This document shows, piece by piece, positions 1,615 through 20,706 of a stretch of DNA of 29,763 bases. Below the pieces are notes generated by a model. The model did no database searches, was not told the origin of the DNA, and saw nothing but the letters and a program-made list of their open reading frames with translations. The DNA comes from a virus. Both the position numbers and the translations under genes were made by a program. The stretch covers positions 1-29,763 of IMG/VR virus record IMGVR_UViG_3300006844_000035; one strand, written 5' to 3'. Within the stretch, counting starts at the first letter, position 1. Each line of letters begins with the position of its first letter.

Positions 1615-1880
1615 GGTATCACAATGAGCCAGAGCCATTAGATGACGCCGCTCGCGAGGAATGGTATCGCGCCATGCGCGAGTCGAACAAAAAACAAGTT
1701 ATGAAAAAATATCGAGTCACAGTCAGTTACAAAGGCCAAGCCACGGTGGACGTGGAGGCCCCCAACGAAGTCGCCGCCGAGGAAATTGCCATCCGCAAGG
1801 CCGACGAGTGCATCAACGCGAACCTCCACGTGATGGATGTTAGCATGCAGTCATTCGGCGCGCACGCAGAAGTCGCATGA
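1611..1880 (+). CDS. Hypothetical protein, 89 aa
   Basis: ATG 1611 overlaps the stop of the upstream gene. Residues 1-27 are charged (EPEPLDDAAREEWYRAMRESNKK). From about residue 31 (MKKYRVTVSYKGQATVDVEAPNEVAAEEIAIRKA) the pattern is a strand followed by a helix, like small domains of the form YxVxVxxxxxxxVxAxxxxeAxxxA. An internal ATG at 1701 would give just this domain and is an alternative start. The function is unknown. The next gene again starts with an ATGA overlap. Confidence 0.7.
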   Translation: MRYHNEPEPLDDAAREEWYRAMRESNKKQVMKKYRVTVSYKGQATVDVEAPNEVAAEEIAIRKADECINANLHVMDVSMQSFGAHAEVA

Positions 1881-2383
1881 GAATTTACTTTCACCGAGGC
1901 AAGGGATTTTGGGCGGCGATGATTCGCTGGTTCACGCGCTCGAAGTATTCGCACGTGTCCATCGCTTTCGGCGACGAAGTTGTTTACGAAGCCCGGCCCG
2001 GCAAAGGCGTCGTCAAGGGACCGCTCACTTCCAACGAAGGCGTGACCCCGTTCATTTTCAAGACCGGCAACTACATCGACGTTTATGCAGTTAGAACATT
2101 TTGTGAATCGCAACTCGGAACCCCCTACGATTATTGGAGCATCGTCTGTTTCCTCATTGGAATCAAACCTCGCCGGTCAAAGGCCAAGTATAATTGTAGC
2201 GAGTTTACCGCCGACGCATGCGCGACTGGAGGACAGAACCTGCAAGAGCGAGTCGAGTCGTTTAAACTGTCTCCCGACAACCTATCTTGGTCAGCGTCTC
2301 TGGTAGTGGATTACGCGCGGAAATTTCAGTGGGATAATCCTATTGACAAAACCCGACCTGTGGGTGTAGACTACCGGGCATGA
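1877..2383 (+). CDS. Permuted NlpC/P60-like (YiiX-type) cysteine peptidase or amidase
   Basis: This 168-aa protein shows the circularly permuted papain-like pattern. The histidine motif YSHVSIAF comes first (H26), followed by VVYEA (E38). The nucleophile cysteine motif YNCSEF comes near residue 107, ahead of a helix. In ordinary NlpC/P60 enzymes cysteine precedes histidine. Relatives hydrolyse peptide or amide bonds, often in cell-wall peptides, and phages can use such enzymes in lysis. No signal peptide or wall-binding domain is visible, so export would need help from a membrane protein. It sits in the overlapping small-gene chain, and its 3' end contains the promoter for the next gene. Confidence 0.7.
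   Translation: MRIYFHRGKGFWAAMIRWFTRSKYSHVSIAFGDEVVYEARPGKGVVKGPLTSNEGVTPFIFKTGNYIDVYAVRTFCESQLGTPYDYWSIVCFLIGIKPRRSKAKYNCSEFTADACATGGQNLQERVESFKLSPDNLSWSASLVVDYARKFQWDNPIDKTRPVGVDYRA
2343..2372 (+). promoter_or_regulatory. Sigma70-like promoter inside the 3' end of the peptidase gene
   Basis: TTGACA (2343-2348) and TAGACT (2367-2372) are 18 bases apart. The ATG of the next gene is at 2380, seven bases after the -10 box. This repeats the leaderless layout seen at 788 and 6184. It is weaker because it lies in coding sequence, where chance matches occur. Confidence 0.45.
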
Positions 2384-2691
2384 AGAAAAAATTTCGCAAA
2401 GGCGCGCGGGTTAAGTTTCTGTCCAAGGAGGCTATTGGCTCCGTCGTTTCCACGTTCACGCACTGGGGTGGAAATTGGTGCGTCGTCGAAAAGGCTGACG
2501 GATTTTTGGTCGTGGAATCCGAATATGATCTCAAGAAAATCCCTCCTTACATCAAAACGCTGCTCGATCTCGCGGTTTACGAAGATCAACAACGTATCGT
2601 CGCATCAGTGGCAAAATGTCTTGCGGCCAATTCTCCCTACATGGATATCCTCAAGGGCGGCAAGTGGCCTGCCAACATGGGACGCATATGA
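2380..2691 (+). CDS. Small protein carrying a major-capsid N-terminal segment
   Basis: This is a 103-aa protein in two parts. Residues 1-57 are basic and beta-rich (KGARVKFLSKEAIGSVVSTF, then GNWCVVEKADGFLVVE), like a small SH3 or KOW-type barrel. Residues 69-99 match residues 18-48 of the major capsid protein encoded at 19429 without gaps. I count 18 identities in 31, including the shared run LAANSPYM. The two genes also share 18 identical bases (2626-2643 and 19522-19539). This suggests a partial duplication, or a protein that mimics or binds like the capsid N-terminus. ATG 2380 overlaps the upstream stop as ATGA. Confidence 0.7.
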   Translation: MKKKFRKGARVKFLSKEAIGSVVSTFTHWGGNWCVVEKADGFLVVESEYDLKKIPPYIKTLLDLAVYEDQQRIVASVAKCLAANSPYMDILKGGKWPANMGRI

Positions 2692-2975
2692 AGCAAGACC
2701 CTCCGCATTTCGTCGCCCCCAGCGAGGACTGTATGGCCAACCCAGTGCCGGGTTACTGGCGGCAGTTTCTCACGTGCTCGGACGGCCACACCGTGCTAGG
2801 AATCGACCAGACGCCCGAGAAGGCAACTGCGCGCGCCATGGAAGCTTTGGCGGTCCATGAAGATTTTCTCAAGCTGCCCGCCGAGGCGCGGTTGAAATAC
2901 TTTGCGGCTGGCGATCTGTGCAACCGTGATATGAAGGAGTGCATTAAACTCTTGGTTCAGCTTTTAGTAAAATGA
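2688..2975 (+). CDS. Hypothetical protein, 95 aa
   Basis: I take ATG 2688 as the start because it overlaps the upstream stop as ATGA, although the frame is open further upstream. The product begins MKQDPPHFVAPSEDCM. It has a short strand-rich part (YWRQFLTCSDGHTVLGIDQTPEKA) and a helical C-terminal half (AMEALAVHEDFLKLPAEARLKYF, then MKECIKLLVQLLVK). No family is recognised. The next gene overlaps its stop by four bases. Confidence 0.65.
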   Translation: MKQDPPHFVAPSEDCMANPVPGYWRQFLTCSDGHTVLGIDQTPEKATARAMEALAVHEDFLKLPAEARLKYFAAGDLCNRDMKECIKLLVQLLVK

Positions 2976-3783: not shown

Positions 3784-4551
3784 GTGAAGAAGATTTGGCT
3801 TTCTGTGTATGCGCTCGCCCTTGCCGGGCTTATGGTCATTATTCAGGTGCGAGATCGATCTGCGCATCAATATGAACGATTGCAAGAGCAAACGGTAATG
3901 GTGAACGGAAACGGCACTGGCACGATCATCGAGCGCGGCCACAATGTGTTCGTCTGGACCGCGAATCACGTGGTGCCTAAGGAACACGAGATCACGGTCA
4001 GCAAGACCATTCGAGTGGCGGGAAAGAAAGCGGGCGAGGTGAAGTTTAAAGCCCGTCTATTGGCGCGCGACCCAGTTCGCGACCTTGCTTTGTTTTGGGT
4101 GGACGTGCCAAAAGGATACTTTCGCGCCGCGCACATTTCCAGTGAAGAACTTTTAGTCGGTGCCCGGCTGACCCATGTAGGAAACGTTGGCGTAGAAAAT
4201 TTCGATGAGAGCGTGTCGATGGGCATCCTCTCGCAGAAAAATGTGCAGCCCACGGAAGCCGACCACCCTACGTGGCCTTGGAAGCTGCCCACTGATCAAG
4301 GAACTTTTTCGGCGTATTATGGTTCTAGTGGCGGGCCGGTATTCAATAAGGACGGAGAATTTGTGGGCGTGCTCGTAGGCGGACTGGTGGGCAAGGGCTA
4401 CATTAATTTTGTTCCGGTTCGGGAAATGAAAGATTTTGCGCGGAAGGCGGGAGTGCTTTGGGCGATTCACGAGGGGCGAAGTCCTAGTGATGAACTGTTG
4501 GAGCAACTCGCCGACCGTAATGTATTGACAATAACATTCAGCGTAAACTAA
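3784..4551 (+). CDS. Membrane-anchored trypsin-like serine protease
   Basis: This 255-aa protein has an N-terminal signal anchor (residues 4-21, IWLSVYALALAGLMVIIQ). A chymotrypsin-fold domain with a complete triad follows: H62 in WTANHVV, D100 in VRDLALF and S182 in GSSGGPV. The final strands (FVGVLVGGLVGKGYINFVPV) are typical. No PDZ domain follows, so this is the catalytic core only. The start is GTG 3784, directly behind the GGCACTGTTTA element. A role in processing virion proteins, lysis or attack on host envelope proteins is possible, but the substrate is unknown. The membrane anchor argues against a classic capsid prohead protease. Confidence 0.85.
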   Translation: MKKIWLSVYALALAGLMVIIQVRDRSAHQYERLQEQTVMVNGNGTGTIIERGHNVFVWTANHVVPKEHEITVSKTIRVAGKKAGEVKFKARLLARDPVRDLALFWVDVPKGYFRAAHISSEELLVGARLTHVGNVGVENFDESVSMGILSQKNVQPTEADHPTWPWKLPTDQGTFSAYYGSSGGPVFNKDGEFVGVLVGGLVGKGYINFVPVREMKDFARKAGVLWAIHEGRSPSDELLEQLADRNVLTITFSVN

Positions 4552-4991: not shown

Positions 4992-5585
4992 ATGGTAGGC
5001 GACAATCGATATCTCATTATCCGGCGTCTCGTCGAGACGGTCGGTGGCACTCCGTCACCCGGTGATCTGGAAACGGACCTGCTGGAAAAATATCTCACTG
5101 CTATTGGCGGAACGCCTGTGCCGGGGGATTCGTTCATCAATCTTTTGGTCAAGATCGTGACCATCAAAGGCGGCACACCTCGCCCCGGTGACAACGAATG
5201 GAATCTGCTGATGAAATGGTTGGAAACGGAAGGCCAGTGTCTCTGTAATGGCATGATCATCGATCTCTGGCGCAAGCTGTTGTCGGTTACGGATTCGTGT
5301 GGTGAAAATCAACCGGACTCAGTTGTTCTCGCGCAGGCGGGTCCCGGTGGTCCGTTCAACGTTTCGTGGTCTCCGGCTGTTCCCGGCGTCCAGTATATTA
5401 TCACGCGGTCACTTAACGGAGGCGCGTGGACGGTCGCGGCAGTTGAGGACGGTCTCAATGTTCCGTTTGAAGGCGCAGACGTGGGCGTGGCTAATGGCGA
5501 CGCGGTGCGTTTTGGAGTCCGCGTGCTAGGCACCGATTTGGATTGTCAGGCAATCAGCAACACGGTTATCGCAGCCGGATTCTAA
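4992..5585 (+). CDS. GGTPxPGD repeat protein with FN3-like C-terminus, copy 1
   Basis: The first 85 residues contain three imperfect 21-residue repeats of the form [VIK]-GGTP-x-PGD followed by xxxNLLxKxL. They start at VGGTPSPGD, IGGTPVPGD and KGGTPRPGD. A short Cys-containing segment (EGQCLCNGMIIDLWRKLL) links them to a beta-rich C-terminal domain of about 85 residues resembling FN3. The next gene is a tandem paralogue with the same layout. Repeats of this type are likely small helical units with a conserved turn, and a structural or appendage role is plausible but unproven. The start is ATG 4992, shortly after the upstream stop. Confidence 0.75.
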   Translation: MVGDNRYLIIRRLVETVGGTPSPGDLETDLLEKYLTAIGGTPVPGDSFINLLVKIVTIKGGTPRPGDNEWNLLMKWLETEGQCLCNGMIIDLWRKLLSVTDSCGENQPDSVVLAQAGPGGPFNVSWSPAVPGVQYIITRSLNGGAWTVAAVEDGLNVPFEGADVGVANGDAVRFGVRVLGTDLDCQAISNTVIAAGF

Positions 5586-6187
5586 TGGTCGGTGACAATA
5601 AATACCTTATACTTCGACGGTTGGTGGAAGCCGCAGGCGGTGAACCACTGGCTGGCGATCTGGAAACGGACCTGCTGGAAAAGTATTTGCGCGCCATCGG
5701 CGGCACCCCGGTTCCGGGCGATGATTTTAACGTTCTCCTTCGGAAGGTCGTCATCATAAAGGGCGGAACACCTACACCCGGAGACACCGAGTGGAATCTT
5801 CTCGTTAAGTGGTTGCAGACGTTAGACGAGTGCCGCAAGTGCGGTGACATGATCATCGACTTGTGGCGTAGAATTCTGGCCGAGAGCGCGGAACCATCTG
5901 AACCCACTGGACCGCCACCGGATGCCCCATTCTTGTCGTGGGTCGGTCCCCAAACATTTTTCGTAAGCCCGACATTGGCCGGAGGTTTTTTGGAGATTCA
6001 GCACGGTCCCGCCGCCGAGGGGCCTTTCACCGATTTTCTTGACGGTATCGCCACGCCCGGTGCAGATTACCTGCTCGATTTTACGGGCGAGGGAGAGCCG
6101 GGCGGGTTGTGGTATCGCGGGCGGGTTTCGATTGATCAATCCAATTGGTCGGAATGGGGTTCTCCCGCTTGGGACGATAATTCTTGA
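5585..6187 (+). CDS. GGTPxPGD repeat protein, tandem paralogue copy 2
   Basis: The start is ATG 5585, overlapping the upstream stop by one base (TAATG). This choice matches copy 1, since both then begin MVGDNxYLIxRRLVE. Three repeats follow; the first has changed to AGGEPLAGD while the other two keep GGTPxPGD. The Cys pair (CRKCGDMIIDLWRRIL) is conserved. The C-terminal domain differs clearly from copy 1 and begins after a Pro-rich linker (SEPTGPPPDAP). A 26-base block is identical between copies (5064-5089 and 5657-5682). The pair arose by duplication and then diverged mostly in the exposed C-terminal domain. Confidence 0.75.
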   Translation: MVGDNKYLILRRLVEAAGGEPLAGDLETDLLEKYLRAIGGTPVPGDDFNVLLRKVVIIKGGTPTPGDTEWNLLVKWLQTLDECRKCGDMIIDLWRRILAESAEPSEPTGPPPDAPFLSWVGPQTFFVSPTLAGGFLEIQHGPAAEGPFTDFLDGIATPGADYLLDFTGEGEPGGLWYRGRVSIDQSNWSEWGSPAWDDNS

Positions 6188-6212
6188 CGGCTATTGACAG
6201 CCATGCTATACT
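6184..6212 (+). promoter_or_regulatory. Sigma70-like promoter of the resolvase unit, predicted leaderless
   Basis: TTGACG (6184-6189) and TATACT (6207-6212) have the ideal 17-base spacing. ATG 6220 follows the -10 box by seven bases, so the transcript would start on or beside the start codon. As at 788, a second TTGACA lies exactly 7 bases upstream of TATACT (6194-6199). The promoter begins within the stop codon of the preceding gene. Confidence 0.7.
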
Positions 6213-6219
6213 GGCTGCA

Positions 6220-6915
6220 ATGAACGTAGTCGGATACATTCGAGTCAGCAGCAAGGGCCAAATGGACGGTGACGGCCCCCAGCGTCAGATGGACGCCATC
6301 AAGAATTTTTGCACCGCGCAGAATTTGTCGTTGCTCGCGACTTTCACCGAAGAAGGCGTCAGCGGTTCCGTGGAGGGAATGGAACGAGAATCGTTTTCCA
6401 ACATGGTCTCGATGATCGTCCACAAGGGTGATGTCGGTGCGGTAGTCGTCGAACGATTGGACCGTCTTGCGCGCGATCTCATGGTCTCGGAGATTCTCTT
6501 GAAGGAATTGCGTTCGCGAGGCATTAAGGTTTTCGCTGCCGATCAGGGCGTGCTTATTGACATGGCCAACGAACAAGGCGACCCCACACGTAAGTTGATT
6601 CGTCAGATTATCGGCGCGTTGGCCGAGTGGGAGAAATCGCAACTCGTGTTGAAACTTCGAATTGCTCGCGAGCGGAAGAAAGCACAAGGATTTAGAATGG
6701 GGGGCTATCAACCCTATGGTCAGAATCAAAACGAGCGCACGATTGTGGGTCTTATCAAGTTGTGGCGGGGGCAGAAATTTACGTTCGAACGCATTGCGGC
6801 TTTGTTGAACGAGTCGGGGTTCCGCACTCGTGTAAACGGTCTGTGGAGCCGAGGCCGGGTGTGTGATCTTTACAATTATCATATGAACAACAAAATGAAA
6901 GGAAAAAATAAATGA
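6220..6915 (+). CDS. Serine recombinase of the resolvase/invertase family
   Basis: The start is ATG 6220, giving MNVVGYIRVSSKGQ with the nucleophile serine at residue 10. The catalytic domain shows the expected order: PQRQMDAIKNFC, EEGVSGSVEGMERESF, then AVVVERLDRLARD with the conserved arginines. GIKVFAADQGVLI and the long E-helix (GALAEWEKSQLVLKLRIARERKK) follow. The C-terminal 60 residues (TFERIAALLNESGFRTRVNGLWSRGRV) are a short recombinase-type DNA-binding region, without the large zinc and coiled-coil domains of big integrases. At 231 aa it fits a resolvase or small transposon recombinase. It may resolve multimers, invert DNA or mobilise its cassette. No inverted crossover sites were found by eye. 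Confidence 0.9.
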   Translation: MNVVGYIRVSSKGQMDGDGPQRQMDAIKNFCTAQNLSLLATFTEEGVSGSVEGMERESFSNMVSMIVHKGDVGAVVVERLDRLARDLMVSEILLKELRSRGIKVFAADQGVLIDMANEQGDPTRKLIRQIIGALAEWEKSQLVLKLRIARERKKAQGFRMGGYQPYGQNQNERTIVGLIKLWRGQKFTFERIAALLNESGFRTRVNGLWSRGRVCDLYNYHMNNKMKGKNK

Positions 6916-12967: not shown

Positions 12968-14380
12968 ATGGCTGATACCCAAACCCCCACACCGGACCAG
13001 ACAGGTTTTCCTGACGCTGGAGAAAACAACAAGAAAGTCGCGGACCAACTTGAGTCTCAGGACATCAATGGTAAGTCCAATGCGCCTACGGCAGAAGTGC
13101 ATAAGGCTACAGGTGACGTGCTTGATGCCTTGCTGAAAGAAAAAGAGCAGGCCGCGAACGAAGGCGACGAGACCGCTAAGAAAGCTGCTGCCGAGAAGGC
13201 CGAGGCGGACAAGAAAGCTGCCGAAGAAAAGGCCAAGCAGGAAGCTGAAGCGAACGACCCGGCCAAGAAAGCCGAGCGCGAAGCCGCCGAGAAAGCGGCT
13301 GCGGAGAAAGCGACTGCGGAGAAATCCAAGGCCGACGATCTTTTCAAGGACTCCCCGGCTCTCCCACCGAACGCGAGTCCGAAGTCTTCCGAAGCGTTCG
13401 CTGCGATTAAGCTCAAGGCCACGCAAGAGGTCAGTGCGCGAGACCAGAGAATTTCTGAGTTGGAAGCCAAGAACAAGGAACTGGAAGAAAAGGTCAACAC
13501 TACGAAAGCAGTTACGCCCGAAGTCGAGCGGGAACTGAAGACGTTGCGCGAGTGGCAGGCCAAACTCGACGTGGAACTGGACCCCAAGTTCAAGGAGTAT
13601 ACCAAGACCATCGAGACGGATCGTGAATTCATTTACGCTCAGTTGCGTAAATCGCCCTTAGTAACCGACAAGGTTATCGAGAAGATTAAGAGTCACGGCG
13701 GTCCCGAGAATGTTCAGTTGGAGAAGATTTTCGCTGAGATTGGCGACAAGACCATTCAGACTTTGGTGGAGTCCAAGATCGCTTCCATCGAGACCGCGAA
13801 GTTCAATCGCGACCAAGCCATAAAGGCCGCGAAGGAAAACATCTCGGGCTATATGGCTGATCGCGAGAAGCAGTGGCAGCAGTCGGCGACTCAACACAAC
13901 GACGACACCAAGAGTATCTTGGAGAAGGATTTGTTGCCGAAGTTGGACTATCTCAAGACTCAGTCGGCAAAGCCCGGCGCAGATGAAGCGACAAAGAAGT
14001 CGGTCGAGGCCCACAACAAATGGGTCGGCGAAACTTTGGGTTTGGTGAATGCGGCTTTGGCCGATGATTCCCCGGACATGCGTGCGGTTATGATCGTGGG
14101 CATGGCTCAACTCTTGCATCTGAAGCCGCAACTGGCGGCTGCGGAAACTAAAGTCGCGAAGCTGGAGAAGGAACTGGCCGAGGCGAATCAGAAGATCGCG
14201 GGATTCAAGGGCGCGAGTGTGTCCCGATTGCGCGAATCTGCGGTTCCTCCCGGTGGCAAGTTGCCGGAAGCGAAGCAGACCGAGAACGACATCTTCAACA
14301 CGCGCGCAGGAGACGCGCTCGACAAGATCGCGGCAGGGATTCAAGAGGAACGCGCGCGAGCAGCCGGAGCCGGTAGATAA
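12968..14380 (+). CDS. Scaffolding protein
   Basis: This 470-aa protein is highly charged and mostly helical. Residues 50-125 are an Ala/Lys/Glu-rich coiled coil (repeats such as AEKAEADKKAAEEKAKQEAE). A second coiled coil (ISELEAKNKELEEKV) and a third near residues 385-415 (AAETKVAKLEKELAEANQKIA) follow. The C-terminus ends in a basic helix (IQEERARAAGAGR), the usual capsid-contact tail of scaffolds. Position after portal supports the call, but the major capsid gene is displaced about 5 kb downstream by the sugar cassette. No protease domain is visible in it. Confidence 0.78.
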   Translation: MADTQTPTPDQTGFPDAGENNKKVADQLESQDINGKSNAPTAEVHKATGDVLDALLKEKEQAANEGDETAKKAAAEKAEADKKAAEEKAKQEAEANDPAKKAEREAAEKAAAEKATAEKSKADDLFKDSPALPPNASPKSSEAFAAIKLKATQEVSARDQRISELEAKNKELEEKVNTTKAVTPEVERELKTLREWQAKLDVELDPKFKEYTKTIETDREFIYAQLRKSPLVTDKVIEKIKSHGGPENVQLEKIFAEIGDKTIQTLVESKIASIETAKFNRDQAIKAAKENISGYMADREKQWQQSATQHNDDTKSILEKDLLPKLDYLKTQSAKPGADEATKKSVEAHNKWVGETLGLVNAALADDSPDMRAVMIVGMAQLLHLKPQLAAAETKVAKLEKELAEANQKIAGFKGASVSRLRESAVPPGGKLPEAKQTENDIFNTRAGDALDKIAAGIQEERARAAGAGR

Positions 14381-15255: not shown

Positions 15256-15989
15256 ACCCAGACACATTAGTGGCCGTCTCGGCCTACGCGGGAGACCTTC
15301 ATCAGGTTGAAGCAAACCTCGCCGCGTATTTGCACCACCAGTGCCCGGTGGTAATTTTTTCGCCGCAAGATGCACCGATCAAAAAGGTTTCGCATCCCGG
15401 TGTGATTTGTATGATCGACGGGTTAAAGGGTTGGATTGGTCCGCAGACGCTGGAGCGGCATCGTCGTTTTTTGAAACTACTGTTGAAGTTTCCGTATCAA
15501 CACTTTTTGTTCAATGATTCCGATTCGTTTTGCCTCTCGCCGGAAATTCCAAAGTATTTATATGACCACCCGGATGTCATCTGGAGCAACGAAGTTCCAG
15601 ATACGAATCCGGCTCCGTCCTTTTTGCCTAAGATTGCGTGTCAGCCTCCGTATTGGTTATCGCGAAATACCATTATAGGCATGCTGAAAACGGTGGACAA
15701 GCTTCCGATCTCGTATCACATCGGGTCGAAGAATCCAGAAGATTGGCCGTTACCGTTTCCTACGGAGTGCATCGATCACTATCAGCTTCAACTTGCGTGC
15801 GGGAGTGGATTTCCGCACGAGAACTTTTTGACGGGAGCGAGTTTTGAAACCGCAAGCGCCCACGGGTTCGCAACAATGCGAGACTTGGTAGCAAACCATG
15901 GTCGAACTATGGTGCATTCCGTTAAAACCCCGCAGGTCCTCGGGGCACTTCTCGAAGACCATCGCACGTGGAAGAAAAGACATCCATGA
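15252..15989 (+). CDS. Glycosyltransferase-like protein, second of the cassette
   Basis: The start is ATG 15252 (ATGA overlap with the previous stop) or ATG 15246, two codons earlier. The roughly 245-aa product has an N-terminal fold like small sugar transferases ([25 protein letters not shown]). A central acidic motif follows in [13 protein letters not shown] (DxD), and then a pocket-like region [17 protein letters not shown]. The C-terminal part contains His/Asp residues that could bind the acceptor ([21 protein letters not shown]). It overlaps the gmd gene by four bases. The family assignment within GT-A is uncertain, but the DxD and context support glycosyl transfer. Confidence 0.6.
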
Positions 15990-16936
15990 AAAAAGCATTG
16001 ATAACCGGCATCACTGGTCAAGACGGTTCGTATCTAGCGGAGCTTTTGCTCTCTAAGGAATATGAAGTTCACGGCATCATTCGTCGGTCGAGCAGCTTTA
16101 ACACCGGTCGCATCGATCACATTTTCGATGCTTTGCATTTGCATCACGGCGACCTGAGTGACTCCAGTGCGACTTCCCGGCTGTTGCACAAGATTGCACC
16201 GGACGAGATTTATCATCTCGGTGCGCAATCGCACGTGCGTGTGAGCTTTGATACCCCGGAGTATACGGCAGATGTTACCGGACTGGGCACCGTCCGGTTA
16301 TTGGAAGCAATTCATGAGTCCGGCGCTAAGCCGAGATTTTACCAAGCGTCGTCGAGTGAAATGTTTGGCAAAGTGCGGGAGACACCTCAGACGGAGAATA
16401 CGCCGTTTTACCCGCGCAGCCCATACGGGTGCGCGAAGGTGTTTGCCTTCTGGACCACAGTGAACTATCGTGAGTCCTACGGGCTGCACGCGAGCAACGG
16501 AATCCTTTTCAATCATGAGTCACCTCGGCGCGGCGAGACGTTTGTGACGCGTAAGATAACGCGGGCAATAAAGCGAATGCGGTATATGCTTCAGGACGAG
16601 CTTCGTCTCGGAAATCTGGACGCCCGGCGCGATTGGGGATACGCCAAGGAATACGTCGAGGCTATGTGGCTCATGCTCCAGCAAGACAAGCCCGATGATT
16701 ACGTCATCGCGACCGGAGAGACTCATAGCGTGCGCGAGTTTCTGGAGGAAGCCGCCACGTATGCAGGCGTCGCCGATTGGGAGAGCCGGGTGGTGATCGA
16801 TCCCAAATATTTTCGTCCCACTGAGGTGGATTTGCTTCTGGGAGACCCGTCTAAAGCCAAACGACAACTCGGGTGGGAGCCAAAGACTACGTTTAAACAA
16901 CTTGTGAGGTTGATGATCGATGAAGAAAGAGTCTAG
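15986..16936 (+). CDS. gmd: GDP-mannose 4,6-dehydratase
   Basis: The enzyme converts GDP-D-mannose to GDP-4-keto-6-deoxymannose with bound NADP. The start is ATG 15986, overlapping the upstream stop as ATGA, which gives 316 aa. The Rossmann motif is TGITGQDG (7-14). [13 protein letters not shown] (34-45) matches the family's NADP and subunit-contact region. ASSSEMFG (121-128) carries the catalytic Ser/Glu (Thr in the E. coli enzyme). SPYGCAK gives Y147 and K151. [20 protein letters not shown] matches the substrate region. It is slightly shorter than many bacterial homologues but has all key residues. It overlaps fcl by 17 bases, so the two act as a pathway pair. Confidence 0.95.
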
Positions 16937-17852
16937 GATATTTGTTGCGGGCCATCGGGGTCTCGTAGGTAGCGCCATGGTTCGGCTTTTGAAGTCGCAG
17001 GGCTTCGAGAATGTTATCACGGTGACGCGGCAGGAAGTCGATCTGTCGGACCCGGTTGCGGTGAAGTGGTTCTATTCGGTTTACCGGCCTGAGTATGTGT
17101 TCATGTGCGCGGCGCGCGTGGGCGGCATCAAGGATAATATGAACGACCGCGTCGGTTTCATGCACCAGAACTTGTTGATCGAGCAGAACACGATTTTGCA
17201 GGCCGCAGAGTATAACGTGAAGAAGTTGGTGTTTCTAGGCTCGTCGTGCATCTATCCTCGCGATTGTGTTCAACCGATTCGCGAAGGATATCTGCTGTCC
17301 GGTCCACTGGAAAAATCTAACGAAGCCTACGCGCTCGCGAAGATCGTTGGCGTCAAGCTTTGTCAGTATCTGAACCAAGATCGCGGACTGCGATTTGTCT
17401 CCGCTATGCCTTGCAATTTGTTCGGACCTAATGATACGTTCGATGGTTTAAACGGCCATTTGGTTCCGGGGATGATGGCGCGCATGCACGAAGCCAAAAT
17501 TAAAAGCCATCCTGAGTTTCAAGTGTGGGGCGACGGATACGCGTGCCGGGAACTTCTTTACTCCGACGATCTGGCGGAAGCGCTAATGGTCGTCATGCGA
17601 GATTACGAAGCGCCGGAGCCAATCAACACCGGTAGTGGCATAGAGTTTATGATGAGCGAGATCGCGGAGATGGTTAAAACCGCCGTGGGTTATCCGGGCT
17701 ACATCGCGTTTGACCCCTCTCAGCCGGTCGGCACGCCGCGCAAGATAATGGACAACTCTAAGATCAGGGGCCTTGGGTGGAGTCCCAAAGTTTCGTTTTT
17801 CGAAGCGATGAAAAGAACTTACGAGTCTGAATATGGAAAGCATACCTTATAA
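16920..17852 (+). CDS. fcl: GDP-L-fucose synthase (epimerase/reductase)
   Basis: This enzyme epimerises the dehydratase product at C3 and C5 and reduces it with NADPH to GDP-L-fucose. The 310-aa protein starts at ATG 16920 within the end of gmd. It shows GHRGLVGS (11-18) for cofactor binding, [14 protein letters not shown], and FLGSSCIYP with the catalytic serine and Cys110. Y137 and K141 lie in [19 protein letters not shown] and [10 protein letters not shown] are also family features, as are the [12 protein letters not shown] and INTGSGIE segments. Every active-site residue I know appears present. Together with gmd it completes GDP-fucose synthesis from host GDP-mannose. Confidence 0.95.
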
Positions 17853-19428: not shown

Positions 19429-20706
19429 ATGGCTTTTTTCTGTGATGATCCGACGCAGATCAGTGATATTGCGTCAAAGGACACGAATCGCATCGTGGGG
19501 ACTATTGCGAAGGCTCTTGCCGCCAATTCTCCCTACATGAACGTGGTCCAAGGCGGGACGTTTCCCGCTGGCACCTCCGATGCTATCCGCTCGGTTGTGC
19601 AAATGCAGGCGGCTCCCGGCGACAGTCTCGCCGTTCCCCAGTTCGTCTGTGATACCGAAATTTGCGGTCAAGCCGGTCATCAAGACCTGACTGACACCGT
19701 CGATTTCACCGTTCGACTGGAATCTTTCCGTGGTCGCGGCCCGAACATCTGCGTTAAGAAAGGCTATTCGGCCTTCAAAGGCAGCTATTCCGTCGCCGAG
19801 GACTCTCTGAAGAAACTGGTGACCCAGTATGTCAACGCGGACATCCGCGCGCAACTGTATCTCCGGTCCGCTTCCAAGTTTACGGCTAATGCCAACTTCG
19901 ATTTCAACTCGCTGTTTACCGGTGGGTCCGAGACCGATTTGGGCGTCAAGTTCGCGCCGCTCCTGCCGACCGGCCCGATGACCTTCAAAGCGCTGCACTA
20001 CATCGCTCGCTACCTCCGCGAAGTCCTGTTCGGGGAATGGTATTCGACCGAAAAGGGTATGCCGCATTTTCGGTTCATTGGCGGGTCCGATCAGGTCGAG
20101 TATTTTCGCTCGGAAGTCGGCGTCCAGAACGTCATGTGTTGCTTGACTCAGGGCGGCTACAAGCTTGGTGAAACCACGCTGACGGCCTACAGCTTCGAGC
20201 AGTCTCCCGCGTATCGCGGCATCGCTTTCGGTGTGGACCAACGTCCTCTCCGCGCGACCGGCTTCGATGTCAACGGTCTGCCTGTGCTGGTGAACCCGGT
20301 CACAATCGTCTCGAACCCCGCAAAGAAAACCGCGTATGCCAAAGCCAATCCCGCGTGGATTGATGCGGACTACGAGATCGGTATTCTCATCGCCGATGGT
20401 TCGTTCGAACGTCAGGTGCCTGAACGCTATGTCGGCGAAGGCAGCTTCAAGTTTGCTCCCCAGTTGCACATGGGCGAGCTTGAGTGGCACTACCACATCG
20501 ACAATCAGTGCAATCAGTGGGGCGATTTCGGCTGGCACAAATACCAGATCACTCGCGCCTACAAGCCGCTGCGTCCGCAGCACATCATCCCGATTCTTTA
20601 CAAGCGCTGCAAAGCTGACTTGGGTCTCGTGAACTGCGATACGCCTCCGGCGTCAAGCTTCACTGGGGCTGACAGCTTCACCACGGTTGGGGTGTGCGAA
20701 GACTAA
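19429..20706 (+). CDS. Major capsid protein
   Basis: This 425-aa protein is the likely shell subunit. The N-terminal arm contains RIVGTIAKALAANSPYMNVV followed by GGTFPAGTSDAIRSVVQMQ and APGDSLAVP, a layout I know from capsid proteins of podovirus-like phages. The body is beta-rich with few Lys clusters, and YRGIAFGVDQRPLRATGFD falls near the middle. The C-terminus (HIIPILYKRCKADLGLVNCD) is also typical of the fold's end. The separate leader, and the hairpin directly downstream, indicate strong, possibly independent expression. Its N-terminal segment recurs in the small protein encoded at 2380. The capsid call rests on position, length and motif style. Confidence 0.83.
   Translation: MAFFCDDPTQISDIASKDTNRIVGTIAKALAANSPYMNVVQGGTFPAGTSDAIRSVVQMQAAPGDSLAVPQFVCDTEICGQAGHQDLTDTVDFTVRLESFRGRGPNICVKKGYSAFKGSYSVAEDSLKKLVTQYVNADIRAQLYLRSASKFTANANFDFNSLFTGGSETDLGVKFAPLLPTGPMTFKALHYIARYLREVLFGEWYSTEKGMPHFRFIGGSDQVEYFRSEVGVQNVMCCLTQGGYKLGETTLTAYSFEQSPAYRGIAFGVDQRPLRATGFDVNGLPVLVNPVTIVSNPAKKTAYAKANPAWIDADYEIGILIADGSFERQVPERYVGEGSFKFAPQLHMGELEWHYHIDNQCNQWGDFGWHKYQITRAYKPLRPQHIIPILYKRCKADLGLVNCDTPPASSFTGADSFTTVGVCED

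Follow-up and report, generated by a model that had tools for sequence, protein, structure and literature searches.

In the stretch of viral DNA analysed here (the window: the 29,763 nucleotides of IMG/VR record IMGVR_UViG_3300006844_000035), a small gene ends in a segment resembling the N-terminus of the probable major capsid protein encoded some distance downstream. This raises the question of how a piece of a structural gene came to form the tail of a separate small protein, and whether this tail does anything for the phage.

Homology between the small protein and the capsid-type N-terminus

The features on which the comparison is based are the following.

2380..2691, + strand: small gene, 103 amino acids, chimeric; ATGA overlap with each neighbour; identical copy in assembly L003; not found at the equivalent site in relative G031
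2380..2559, + strand: residues 1-60 of the small protein, a domain without detectable relatives (no matches)
2560..2676, + strand: residues 61-99 of the small protein, homologous to the capsid-type N-terminus (profile E=1e-13; 18/31 identical over residues 69-99)
2619..2643, + strand: 25-base core in the small gene, 24/25 common to the capsid-type gene (base comparison)
19429..20706, + strand: capsid-type gene, probable major capsid protein, 425 amino acids (gene order and conservation in relatives; no family match)
19456..19572, + strand: capsid-type residues 10-48, homologous N-terminal segment (alignment and profile)
19515..19539, + strand: 25-base core in the capsid-type gene (base comparison)

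The initial annotation had claimed an ungapped match of 18 identical residues out of 31, together with 18 identical bases, and both were recovered by alignment: residues 69-99 of the small protein (2584-2676) pair with residues 18-48 of the 19429-20706 product (19480-19572), no gap being needed. The local alignment score was 102, far above that of shuffled sequences (29.3±4.6, maximum 63 in 2000 shuffles). At the DNA level, an exact run of 18 bases, GCCAATTCTCCCTACATG, is present at 2626-2643 and 19522-19539 and sits within a match of 24 of 25 bases (2619-2643 versus 19515-19539), while the 93-nt segments of the two genes share 59 of their 93 bases overall. A profile of related capsid-type proteins, built from 55 distinct N-termini, was run against all window ORFs of at least 30 amino acids. 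It recovered the capsid-type gene (E=2e-39) and then the small gene, with a significant match over residues 61-99, the next ORF being at E=0.08. In the profile alignment, a one-residue insertion carries the homology slightly further upstream than had been claimed, to approximately residue 61 of the small protein and residue 10 of the capsid-type protein. Judged from sequence comparison, the tail of the small gene is truly a copy, now diverged, of some 40 residues of the capsid-type N-terminus. A chance resemblance or a generic motif, which the shortness of the segment might suggest, has a negligible probability and is refuted by the profile, shuffle and database controls, no comparable match being found in PDB, Pfam or 50,697 phage records; likewise, no tail-like sequence was found in known phages, Pfam, PHROGs or PDB.

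The frame of the small gene stops four residues past the homologous segment and the shell-forming body (capsid-type residues 49-425) is absent, so the gene is not a full paralogous coat gene. Capsid sequence continuing in other frames after 2691 was looked for and none was found. Residues 1-60 had been described as unrelated to the capsid protein, and they match nothing in Pfam, the related loci, phages or IMG/VR; tblastn matches at E=2 and a match to SRP9 at E=0.4 were dismissed.

The 19429 product is probably the major capsid protein, on the basis of its size, its conservation in all relatives and the gene order, in which a terminase, a portal-size gene and a coiled-coil scaffold-like gene (12968-14377) precede it. 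Compared with known capsid families and folds as a candidate HK97-fold protein, it gave no match in PHROG, Pfam, NCBIfam or PDB, none in the 50,697 phage records and none to the N4 coat protein. An N4-like assignment, prompted by the gene order and by genomes of ~70 kb, found no sequence support. AlphaFold models were poor for both proteins (pLDDT 34 for the capsid-type protein and 45 for the small protein) and too weak for fold searches. The capsid-type family is large, with more than 100 IMG/VR contigs, many of them of 70-75 kb. One relative, 69% identical (L160:3431-4684), comes from a contig placed by binning in a Candidatus Peribacteraceae MAG, which is either a hint to the host or a binning error. 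Between the scaffold-like and capsid-type genes, within the structural module, genes resembling GDP-mannose dehydratase and GDP-fucose synthase were recognized by eye (15968-17852).

Distribution of the segment and site of the small gene

For the distribution of the segment elsewhere, IMG/VR scans supplied 34 close capsid-type relatives (77-85% identical), and the best 80 of 122 matches were taken from an N-terminal profile scan of the same collection. In all of these, the segment was the N-terminus of a frame of ~420-500 amino acids, except on contigs cut short. Altogether 85 related records were searched whole, 84 of them viral contigs and the other a bacterial MAG, and the tail sequence was found only at the start of the capsid-type gene; many of these records are fragments, and the search for extra copies covers those fragments only. 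A candidate extra copy in record G020 was a weak match (E=0.65), but it lies inside that record's own capsid frame and was rejected. The extra copy is carried by contig L003 too, which matches the window at 99.97% identity over 11.9 kb, with an identical small gene, and is the same strain in another assembly. Likewise, a scan of the viral collection with the window's own record left out found the 18-mer in L003 and in no other record. The second copy is thus known from one strain, in two near-identical assemblies. An assembly chimera was rejected because L003 carries the identical gene and because the tail has diverged from the capsid gene.

The neighbourhood of the small gene contains three further features.

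1877..2383, + strand: upstream gene, in PHROG 1128 (host-takeover/moron category); conserved at its end in G031
2343..2372, + strand: promoter-like site just 5' of the small gene (TTGACA, 18, TAGACT); promoter-like matches in the region around the gene are not enriched over shuffles
2688..2975, + strand: downstream gene; a 57% identical homologue lies directly 3' of the upstream gene in G031

The frame of the small gene is intact and has ATGA overlaps on both sides, at its start with the upstream and at its end with the downstream gene. One relative, record G031 (L033/L076; capsid-type protein 79% identical), covers this site. There, the homologue of the downstream gene comes immediately after the end of the upstream gene, with no small gene between them, and TTGACA-17-TAAGAT stands at the place equivalent to the promoter-like site. 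With respect to this one relative, the small gene fits an inserted gene (moron), and it was more likely gained in the window phage than lost in G031. Homologues of the downstream gene in G060 and G070 lie in a different setting and were uninformative on the site. The position of the small gene and the promoter-like site suggest the label "early" that it had been given.

The initial annotation had offered two readings, a capsid mimic binding scaffold, portal or host factors, or a remnant of recombination. An origin by recombination, making the small gene a chimera with a captured capsid-type N-terminal arm, is well supported, because one extra copy in one strain stands against 85 related records without it and because the site is empty in the relative; the mimic part of the proposal is plausible by analogy.

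Substitution pattern and the shared 25-base core

The residues of the tail were compared with those of 51 capsid variants, and 25 of the 31 are states found at the same position in these variants. The six unseen residues are fewer than the 10.8 expected (P=0.002) when the phage's own capsid segment is left to drift freely to the same number of residue differences, so the tail is not just a drifted plain copy of the own coat gene. Two origins fit this result: divergence under capsid-like constraint, or capture from a more distant capsid gene with slight drift thereafter. The capsid-invariant positions G24, F45 and G48 are changed in the tail, and three of its last five residues (44-48) are unlike those of any capsid relative. 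The tail residues KCLAANSPY recur in a distant capsid-type protein, that of L004.

The 25-base core is shared only with the window phage's own capsid-type gene, the best of 113 other capsid segments reaching 15 bases, and such a run arises in 0.04% of synonymous-codon shuffles. The simplest reading of the core would be a short exchange between the small gene and the capsid-type gene within the lineage, a suggestion drawn from base comparison that we make with modest confidence and for a single event.

Possible roles of the tail

Our best explanation, proposed tentatively and at somewhat less than even likelihood, is that recombination fused the capsid-type N-terminal arm of the same phage family to an unrelated domain of ~60 residues, with a new small gene as the result, placed between two older ones and right after the promoter-like site. 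Of the capsid N-terminus, the captured piece would be the part that forms a helix and is conserved best. By analogy, the tail might let the small protein bind the scaffold in place of the coat protein, or bind the growing shell, and the protein could thereby enter procapsids or tune assembly. Binding to the scaffold or procapsid would be the leading mechanism because the scaffold holds this part of the coat, a helix, in P22 and SPP1. The P22 procapsid has an N-terminal helix as its coat N-arm, which the C-terminus of the scaffold keeps in place (PMC9965877), and in SPP1 the scaffold binds the coat N-terminal helix, which unfolds into the N-arm on maturation (PMC6813328). Such a coat N-terminal stretch, helical in the procapsid and scaffold-bound, is comparable in kind to the tail segment; in the window phage, however, the segment stands on a separate small protein.

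Other systems offer partial parallels. CpmB of SaPI1 is a satellite protein that competes at the coat-scaffold interface from the scaffold side (PMC5644958). Like the 103-residue protein, it is small and has a motif common to one assembly partner, but its motif is that of the scaffold and its gene belongs to a satellite, whereas the present protein has a capsid segment and a gene of the phage itself. Internal proteins of T4 have a short N-terminal capsid targeting sequence that is cleaved by the prohead protease; similarly, a short segment could send the small protein into the procapsid, although the T4 signal is not a piece of the coat protein. The gene also resembles phage morons and mosaic genes in being an extra gene between conserved neighbours and absent from a relative, and differs from them in carrying a fragment of a structural gene of its own phage family.

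The best explanation is favoured by the profile match, the 85 records, the empty G031 site, the intact frame, the residue states and the P22 and SPP1 helices; against it stand the changes at G24, F45 and G48, the odd end of the tail, the poor AlphaFold models, the restriction to one strain and a capsid label without family match. A working tail and a functionless remnant appear about equally likely. The remnant, quite possible in our estimation, would be a piece of capsid gene, perhaps from a related phage, joined to the small gene and only lengthening its protein. Its occurrence in a single strain, the changes at invariant capsid positions and the degenerate end all fit such a remnant, as does the substitution pattern if the donor was a more distant capsid lineage (the residues common to L004) and ~7 neutral changes followed; the open frame with coupled overlaps and a core kept identical to the own capsid-type gene argue against it. 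A more specific version of the working tail, in which a phage-made mimic of the coat N-arm docks on the scaffold or shell, regulates assembly or enters the virion, while short gene conversion keeps the core matched to the capsid gene, is in our opinion rather unlikely.

Two further readings have much lower probability. The tail could act as a decoy against a coat-sensing host defence, a free arm occupying the sensor while assembly is unharmed. Capsid-sensing defences are known, among them CapRel (PMC9712102) and a TIR system (PMC11312562). However, a fragment acting as trigger would be expected rather to switch such a sensor on, and PADLOC shows no defence link; we consider a decoy improbable. 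At least as improbable is that the 25 shared bases act at the DNA level, as a site in use at both loci, with the protein likeness secondary: the identity of the core is far above the synonymous expectation, but other capsid relatives do without these bases and the protein homology runs well beyond the core.

At this locus, a fragment of a structural gene has clearly come to form the end of another, small phage protein. A functional tail would be a self-encoded coat-arm mimic and a natural tool to probe the contact between coat N-arm and scaffold; one that does nothing would give a snapshot of how chimeric phage genes arise.

Other genes in the window

Several other genes of the window were noted. 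The small protein encoded at 1611-1880 has a weak similarity to AbiEii models (E=0.002), probably by chance. A trypsin-like protease with an apparent N-terminal membrane segment (3784-4551; Pfam Trypsin_2) has a homologue in G031. Adjacent genes at 4992-5585 and 5543-6187 look like tandem copies, with ~72% DNA identity across 217 bases and GGTP.PGD motifs repeated in each, and a similar gene lies in G031. Finally, a serine recombinase (6184-6915; Pfam Resolvase, E=2e-28) adjoins the packaging genes and is present in relative G006 too.
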